A stretch of DNA of 64,000 bases from Cloeon dipterum (lineage: Eukaryota; Arthropoda; Insecta; Ephemeroptera; Baetidae). Made by a program: the position numbers and the translations under genes. The notes below the pieces were generated by a model. The model had not been told where the DNA came from, searched no databases, and saw nothing but the letters and a program-made list of their open reading frames with translations. The DNA lies in assembly GCF_949628265.1 (NCBI RefSeq), contig NC_088786.1, forward strand, positions 32,013,681 through 32,077,680, written 5' to 3'. Of this stretch, positions 19,906 to 21,193 are shown piece by piece. The stretch's first letter is position 1. Each line of letters begins with the position of its first letter.

Positions 19906-19920
19906 ATCGTCAATAGAGCA

Positions 19921-20055
19921 CTGTGCGGTTGCGGTTTTGGTACTAAAAAACCGCAAACCGCCCACCACAACCGCAGATGCGGTTATAATTTTGCGGTTGC
20001 GGTGCGGTTGCGGTTTAATTTTTGCGGTTGCGGTGGAACCGCAAAAAACCGCAAA
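19921..20055. repeat. GCGGTT-type simple repeat inside the hAT element
   Basis: Irregular runs of TGCGGT/ACCGCA hexamers occur on both strands between the left transposon end and the minisatellite. The runs occur in both orientations, so the segment can fold on itself. Confidence 0.7.
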
Positions 20056-20103
20056 TCTTGAGAAACAAAATTTACCATTTTTATTATGCGACTGTTTTGC
20101 ACG

Positions 20104-21174
20104 GATAAGACGTCCCGCGGATAGGGCGTCCTGCGGGACGGGTAGGGCGTCCTGCGGGACGGGTAGGCGTCGCGCGGGACGGGTAGGGCGTTACGCGTAA
20201 CGGGTAGGGCGTTACGCGGGACGGGTAGGGCGTTACGCGTAACGGGTAGGGCGTTACGCGTAACGGGTAGGGCGTTACGCGTAACGGGGAGGGCGTTACG
20301 CGTAACGGGTAGGGCGTTACGCGTAACGGGTAGGGCGTTACGCGTAACGGGGAGGGCGTTACGCGTAACGGGTAGGGCGTTACGCATAACGGGGAGGGCG
20401 TTACGCGTAACGGGTAGGCCGTTACGCGTAACGGGTAGGGCGTTACGCGTAACGGGTAGGCCGTTACGCGTAACGGGTAGGCCGTTACGCATAACGGGGA
20501 GGGCGTTACGCATAACGGGTAGAGCGTTACGCGGGACGGGTAGGGCGTTACGCGTAACGGGTAGGGCGTTACGCGTAACGGGTAGGGCGTTACGCGTAAC
20601 GGGTAGAGCGTTACGCGGGACGGGGAGGGCGTTACGCGTAACGGGTAGGGCGTTACGCGGGACGGGGAGGGCGTTACGCGTAACGGGTAGGGCGTTACGC
20701 GTAACGGGTAGGGCGTTACGCGTAACGGGTAGGGCGTTACGCGTAACGGGTAGGGCGTTACGCGTAACGGGTAGGGCGTTACGCGTAACGGGTAGGGCGT
20801 TACGCGTAACGGGTAGGGCGTTACGCGAAACGGGTAGGGCGTTACGCGTAACGGGTAGGGCGTTACGCGTAACGCGTAGGGCGTTACGCGTAACGGGTAG
20901 GGCGTTACGCGAAACGGGTAGGGCGTTACGCGAAACGGGTAGGGCGTTACGCGTAACGGGTAGGGCGTTACGCGGGACGGGGAGGGCGTTACGCGTAACG
21001 GGTAGGCCGTTACGCGTAACGGGTAGGGCGTTACGCGTAACGGGTAGGGCGTTACGCGTAACGGGTAGGCCGTTACGCATAACGGGGAGGGCGTTACGCA
21101 AAACGGGTAGAGCGTTACGCGGGACGGGTAGGGCGTTACGCGAAACGGGTAGGGCGTTACGCGTAACGGGTAGG
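20104..21174. repeat. 21-bp palindromic minisatellite, about 50 copies
   Basis: Head-to-tail array of a 21-bp unit, GGGCGTTACGCGTAACGGGTA. The core GTTACGCGTAAC is a perfect 12-bp palindrome containing an MluI site. Variant units carry GGGAC, GAAAC or CATAAC in place of the right half, and the leftmost units have GTCCTGCGGGAC, itself nearly palindromic. Because 21 is divisible by three and the unit lacks stops, the minus strand stays open in two frames, giving 7-residue repeats (NALPVTR and RVTPYPL). These are repeat artefacts, not genes. Confidence 0.95.
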
Positions 21175-21193
21175 ACAGTGCTCTAATCGTCAA

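Follow-up and report, generated by a model that had tools for sequence, protein, structure and literature searches.

Transposon-internal tandem repeats that make satellites are already known. As described in the portions of the article drawn on here, the closest known case to be compared with the hAT minisatellite carrier of Cloeon dipterum is the foldback transposon Tetris of Drosophila virilis, the internal tandem repeats of which (the TIR-220 satellite) also form kb-size satellite-like arrays, and the ends of which are common to another element, both being likely moved by one autonomous transposon (PMC4079207). Tetris and the Cloeon element are alike in being non-autonomous DNA transposons with internal repeats that are also arrayed in a satellite-like manner, but Tetris is a foldback element with ~220-bp repeats in its inverted repeats, whereas the Cloeon element is a hAT transposon with a 21-bp repeat in its interior (PMC4079207). 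The MITE-satellite miDNA4 of Xenopus tropicalis, a tandem array within a miniature transposon that is thought to drive satellite growth, is similar to the Cloeon element in that a miniature transposon holds the array, but is listed under Tc1-mariner, and no hAT element is among the MITE-borne satellites in the part of the review's table considered here, although many other transposon-borne repeats of this kind are included (PMC9659126). Lastly, the passages available on Galileo of Drosophila willistoni describe one copy with long direct tandem repeats inside the element, which is again comparable, except that Galileo is a member of the P superfamily and its ~140-bp repeats lie in the inverted repeats (PMC4168063). 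Within the titles, abstracts and passages covered (including PMC10794571; most subscription journals lie outside this set), we could not find a hAT element with an internal minisatellite, and no publication on the present end and unit sequences was found by title or start of abstract. The family described here is hence the hAT counterpart of a known phenomenon, the stages of which are represented with unusual completeness within a single genome.

The window, i.e., the whole stretch of 64,000 nucleotides that was analysed (C1:32013681-32077680 of a 190-Mb assembly in 10 contigs), contains a hAT element of 1272 bp at positions 19914-21185, arranged as ATCGTCAA / TAGAGCACTGT ... ACAGTGCTCTA / ATCGTCAA. 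In four contig ends of this assembly, no familiar telomere motif was recognised. The perfect 8-bp target-site duplication ATCGTCAA occupies 19906-19913 on the left and 21186-21193 on the right (neither with a strand), and encloses terminal inverted repeats of 11 bp at 19914-19924 (TAGAGCACTGT, plus strand) and 21175-21185 (minus strand). Between them, on the plus strand, lie the subterminal GCGGT/ACCGC repeats (19924-20052; 14 of them in 19914-20090), the remainder of the end segment together with the array junction (20053-20117, with the reverse complement of CCGTGCAAAACAGTCGCA at 20087-20104), and the minisatellite array (20118-21174), which comprises ~50 units of 21 bp, each made of the linker GGGTAGGGC and the palindromic core GTTACGCGTAAC, and begins on the left with B-like units (GTCCTGCGGGAC, GTCGCGCGGGAC). 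Tandem-repeat detection places the 21-bp array at 20138-21174 (49.4 copies, 92% matches, score 1731), and a further analysis puts its start at ~20118. The core GTTACGCGTAAC is a perfect palindrome of six pairs and accounts for 32 of the 49 cores parsed. As such, the duplication, the hAT-type 11-bp inverted ends and the approximately 50 units with a 12-bp palindromic core that had been proposed in the first-pass annotation were all confirmed, although the ends of the family are longer (16 bp). The GCGGTT tract reported there is likewise present, but represents the subterminal repeat region that occurs at both ends of the three members in which it was counted.

The same annotation had considered the element to be built almost entirely of minisatellite. 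This holds for the window copy, but not for the family, since fuller copies possess a long flank of up to ~970 bp and, opposite to it, a short one of ~180 bp, both of which are common to array-bearing and array-less members. In the window, the short side and the array are kept and the ~970-bp side is gone down to the 11-bp end, so that the copy looks array-only because it is devoid of ~1 kb on that side. For the resulting right junction between array and 11-bp end, the genome contains a single exact match, and looser matches (24 in all) stay below the control (44). The edge units of the window copy are, as judged by eye, common to L024. All open frames of at least 150 aa in the element run through the tandem array and none represents a transposase of its own; the window element is an internally deleted, non-autonomous hAT transposon.

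Further copies with the same ends and 8-bp duplications do exist in the genome. Matches to the 16-bp end with up to two mismatches number 124 (control, 63), the looser ones being largely due to chance, and from 100 of these 124, together with the matches to the 11-mer end, we obtained 29 loci in which both ends are paired, each with up to two mismatches of 16 and with the window and a 43-kb copy included; single matches to the 11-mer end (96 vs 55 in the control) are in many cases due to chance. The number of 29 is a count of the loci read and no census, as copies escape it when their ends have diverged or decayed further. These loci range from 129 bp (the remnant L046) to 43,450 bp, and 16 of them have perfect 8-bp duplications, namely the window, the 43-kb copy and 14 of the 27 others, three more of which match at 7 of 8 positions, compared with identical next-outer octamers in 0 of 27 loci. 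The inverted ends correspond to the 16 bp TAGAGCACTGTGCGGT in 18 of 19 end pairs, and the right end of the window copy retains 11 of them. Among 19 octamers, scored on the plus strand irrespective of element orientation, A is found at position 7 in 18 and T at position 2 in 12. The duplication consensus of Ac-type hAT elements is nTnnnnAn, and terminal inverted repeats such as TAGAGCACTGTGCGGT are hAT-like. From the 8-bp duplications, the short inverted ends and the transposase pieces in a same-ended member, it follows that the window element belongs to the hAT superfamily. A foldback element, which was considered as a candidate, is ruled out, as the inverted repeats measure merely 11-16 bp and long inverted repeats are lacking.

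An array is present in 17 of the 29 loci (the window, L002+L003, L010, L011, L012, L016-L026 and L040) and absent from 12 (L009, L013, L015, L027, L039, L041-L046 and L055). Perfect duplications flank 13 of the 17 array-bearers, all except L010, L011, L018 and L026, as well as the array-less copies L009, L055 and L027. To these can be added single-ended array-bearing copies (L047, L048 with L083, L049, L050 and L078; both sides of the L048-L083 interval were read, with ~1.2 kb between them outside the reading) and the array-bearing remnants L075 and L076. The array-less copies L009, L013, L015, L039 and L044 measure 1337-1379 bp, and the array occupies the place of ~200-240 bp of such copies. 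Over the first 250 bp, GCGGT/ACCGC motifs number 10 in L009, 13 in L039 and 14 in L027, and over the last 250 bp 13, 9 and 9, respectively, compared with a single motif in the central part of each copy. As in other hAT elements, these subterminal repeats are probably transposase-binding sites.

Some members of the family show peculiarities of their own. In the neighbouring copies L013, L014 and L015 (C3:640723-653785), the flanking octamers of one copy match those of its neighbours as reverse complements, while the two octamers of a single copy do not match each other, a pattern that an inversion or an exchange involving two copies would leave. L041 (C4:32254693-32260248) is a 4956-bp copy with an inserted segment (L041:2343-3464) that has an open frame of 373 aa with C2H2 zinc fingers. 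L051, L052 and L053 (C4:31.71-31.77 Mb) lie ~25 kb apart and have the outer flank CCGCGCATGAGA in common, which points to segmental duplication, and L055 (C4:34266268-34271568), the left flank of which matches 12 other places, seems to sit within a dispersed repeat.

With regard to mobility, a search of the genome for the hAT dimerisation domain returned 13 places, one of which lies inside L027 and another near the single end of L054. L027 is an array-less copy of 4234 bp with the duplication GTGGAAAC and the same ends as the family. One of the seven pieces scanned contains PF05699 (50.1 bits; cut-off 21.4), and three pieces match the solved structures of Hermes, itself of the hAT superfamily, in collinear order. 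Taken singly, these matches are weak (E 0.055, 0.15-0.34 and 0.01-0.014), and the transposase frame of the gene is split into pieces, by introns or decay. Where the first-pass annotation had proposed to look for an autonomous hAT with the same ends, a transposase-bearing member does exist, with Hermes-like pieces in a split frame. From the shared ends and these pieces we infer that the window element and its family are moved by a Hermes-like hAT transposase of the L027 kind.

Empty sites, which the first-pass annotation had suggested looking for in other individuals, were found as paralogous sites for two copies. When, for each of the 16 perfectly duplicated insertions, the two flanks were joined and searched against the same genome, the array-bearing copy L012 had a paralogous empty site at C2:6601891-6602032 that is 89% identical and contains a single GCTGATAA, and L027 had five spanning matches of 90-100% identity, the best of which shows no difference along the full 140 bp. 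For 13 of the 16 copies, including the window, no spanning match was present in their own genome, and for L055 all matches end 7 bases past the junction and were not counted.

The arrays vary greatly in length between end-paired copies, with L010 (17 linkers) and L017 (269 linkers) at the two extremes of the counts. The copy at C1:7497544-7540993 (L002+L003) spans 43,450 bp with CTTTAGAG on both sides. All five samples taken from it (L002, L088, L071, L089 and L003) consist of array apart from the end flanks and contain about one linker per 25 bp, which by extrapolation would amount to perhaps ~1,700 units; long arrays of this kind are known from one assembly. Among the units, type A has the core GTTACGCGTAAC, type B has the core GTCCCGCGGGAC, often together with the 20-bp core GTCCCGCAGTCACGCGGGAC, and type M is GTTACGCGTCTCGCGTAAC with GTTACGCATAAC. 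Two compensated pairs distinguish the cores of types A and B. In L021, no core is more frequent than the imperfect GTTACGCATAAC (89 units).

A tree of 27 rows was built from the 970-bp side with the array excluded. It has no row for the window, since the left side of the window copy is missing, nor for L010, L014, L026, L027, L041, L046, L049, L050, L054, L056, L058, L075 and L076, most of which are short of that side; L042, L043 and L055 were omitted though most of the 970-bp side is present in them. One branch with a support of 100/99 separates 17 array-bearing from 10 array-less rows. Because the array-bearing copies lie on one side of this supported branch, the array was probably acquired once and then carried along by the element, and the proposal that the array is the cargo of a mobile element is borne out on a tree that is itself free of array sequence. 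Array types are clustered on the tree as well, with 2 changes for type B (shuffled mean 7.2; 0 of 500 shuffles as low), 4 changes for type A (4 of 500 as low) and 4 changes for all labels (shuffled mean 13.6; 0 of 200 as low), figures for which the shuffles include array-less rows and many forks among the array-bearers are unresolved. The 43-kb copy groups with L012 (58 linkers) and L017 at a support of 93/82, which is below the mark of the tool. An odd unit of 35 bases near the array edge, found in the A-type copies L010 and L023 and in the B-type copies L016, L019, L025 and L083, speaks for one founder. The array junction (CCGTGCAAAACAGTCGCA) has 17 genome matches with at most one mismatch, 16 of them in both-ended copies and one in the truncated L083, and the 15 further matches with two mismatches are at control level (22 in all); the array-bearing L021 has no match to this junction.

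Our best explanation, to which as a whole we assign a probability of about 0.82, combines one capture, spread by transposition, array growth and the trimming of the window copy. In one ancestral element of ~1.35 kb, a stretch of palindromic minisatellite would have taken the place of 200-240 bp of internal sequence, most likely because a gap was repaired incorrectly with an already dispersed array as template. The array-bearing copy then spread by cut-and-paste, as is shown by the 8-bp duplications, the single tree branch and the empty site of one array-bearing copy. Within the copies, unequal exchange or replication slippage may have lengthened, shortened and homogenised the arrays, with an outcome between 17 counted units and perhaps 1,700 (extrapolated) in the 43-kb element, and in the window copy the second flank was trimmed to its terminal 11 bp.

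The repeat is not confined to the element. Its exact 21-mer occurs 1598 times in the genome (225 forward, 1373 reverse) vs 0 times for the reversed pattern, and six consecutive units have 158 matches. The family and array loci sampled account for 275 of the exact 21-mers (290 counted, 15 of them twice, as L028 and L040 are one locus; L001, L008, L029, L061 and L066 were omitted for overlap). Among the matches listed, free blocks span at least 35 kb at C2:31508138-31542938 and at least 17 kb at C4:5534929-5552060, and samples of the two (L084, L085 and L086) have a 240-bp spacer in common between runs of the 21-bp unit. No match to a hAT flank was found in these samples, the two block borders read included, nor in the parts read of the arrays at L074, L077, L079, L080 and L081. 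By eye, parts of the 240-bp spacer extend into both borders read. A second spacer, of 165 bp with flanking cores, occurs ten times in the hAT copy L026 (C5:23779809-23784758), and one copy of 90% identity is present in the free array L079 (C1:1192500-1194500), from which it can be concluded that repeat DNA moved between hAT-borne and free arrays, one way or the other. The hAT element is one carrier of the minisatellite and not its sole home. It may also have seeded free satellites. That it acts as a satellite spreader, which carries a growing minisatellite between intact ends in copies of up to 43 kb and frees blocks of tens of kb when its ends are lost, is from our point of view a tentative and rather unlikely idea. 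As a separate observation, the array of ~61 units at L074:470-3501 (C5:28047000-28050500) is centred in an inverted repeat of ~3 kb with 84.9% identity, and a separate array of 3 units lies at L074:294-361.

One could imagine that the minisatellite was instead born inside the hAT element and that hAT copies which lost their ends seeded the free arrays later. Such an origin would be in line with L075, L076 and L078, arrays with one hAT side for which the other was not found, as well as with the occurrence of A-type and M-type units in both hAT and free arrays and of exact B-type doublets in hAT copies alone (11 of 11 matches). However, the replaced segment of the three array-less copies tested holds no precursor of the unit, the best candidate having 10 mismatches in 21 and being no better than shuffles. 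As no unit-like sequence exists in the replaced stretch, the repeat would have come from outside or from filler DNA, and the idea that the element carries "its own satellite" becomes doubtful, the more so as the unit is also arrayed without hAT sequence, both in the samples of the C2 and C4 blocks and in what was read of the five arrays named above. Moreover, hAT arrays have B-like units at their edges, but units of type A or M make up the free arrays that were read. We thus consider an origin within the element unlikely and favour the capture of an existing repeat.

A second alternative holds that the palindromic core is maintained as a binding site, or as a hairpin needed for transposition or array growth, in keeping with the earlier claim that variant cores preserve near-palindromy. 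The two compensated pairs that set GTTACGCGTAAC and GTCCCGCGGGAC families apart could be read in this way, and so could the paired arms kept by longer cores and the folding of single-stranded DNA, in which the four consensus units with perfect arms reach z values of -4.2 to -5.9 relative to shuffles. However, the variant test, which covers the 12-bp cores alone and leaves 19- and 20-bp cores outside, does not bear out the claim, since core pairs are lost at a random rate. The 68 unique variant cores of hAT arrays retain 293 pairs, where random substitution predicts 291.8 +/- 3.2 (a value at least as high was reached in 757 of 2000 simulations), and the 29 variant cores of free arrays retain 121 pairs vs 122.5 +/- 2.4, with compensated double changes in 1 of 33 cases for hAT arrays and 0 of 11 for free arrays. 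In addition, the imperfect GTTACGCATAAC, dominant in L021, folds weakly (z -1.7), and the array-less L009, L055 and L027 have perfect duplications. Maintenance of the core is accordingly improbable; the ability of the units to fold back would seem to stem from the repeat that founded the arrays, and selection on it is not supported by the 12-bp variant test. A G-quadruplex formed by the linker GGGNNGGG around the hairpin was rejected as a candidate, as ViennaRNA (RNA energies, quadruplexes allowed) gave hairpins for three of four unit types, with the type B unit alone folding as a quadruplex. Among 602 units of hAT arrays, the second G-run is frequently interrupted, with deviations at position 6 in 11% and at position 8 in 10%.

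Lastly, coincidental flanking octamers around an array that was in place before the ends would agree with the missing empty site of the window copy, but are hardly credible given the same ends with 8-bp duplications at 16 of 29 loci against 0 of 27 control octamers, the same ends in array-less copies and the empty sites of two copies.

Overall, the probable capture of the minisatellite by a hAT element and its subsequent transport bear on the question of how satellites spread between chromosomes, which is still open and for which this family shows one route by transposon. One genome contains array-less copies, array-bearing copies of variable length, decayed copies with part of a flank, and free arrays of the same repeat. 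As all stages are present in one genome, the steps from cargo to satellite block can be compared between individuals and related species.
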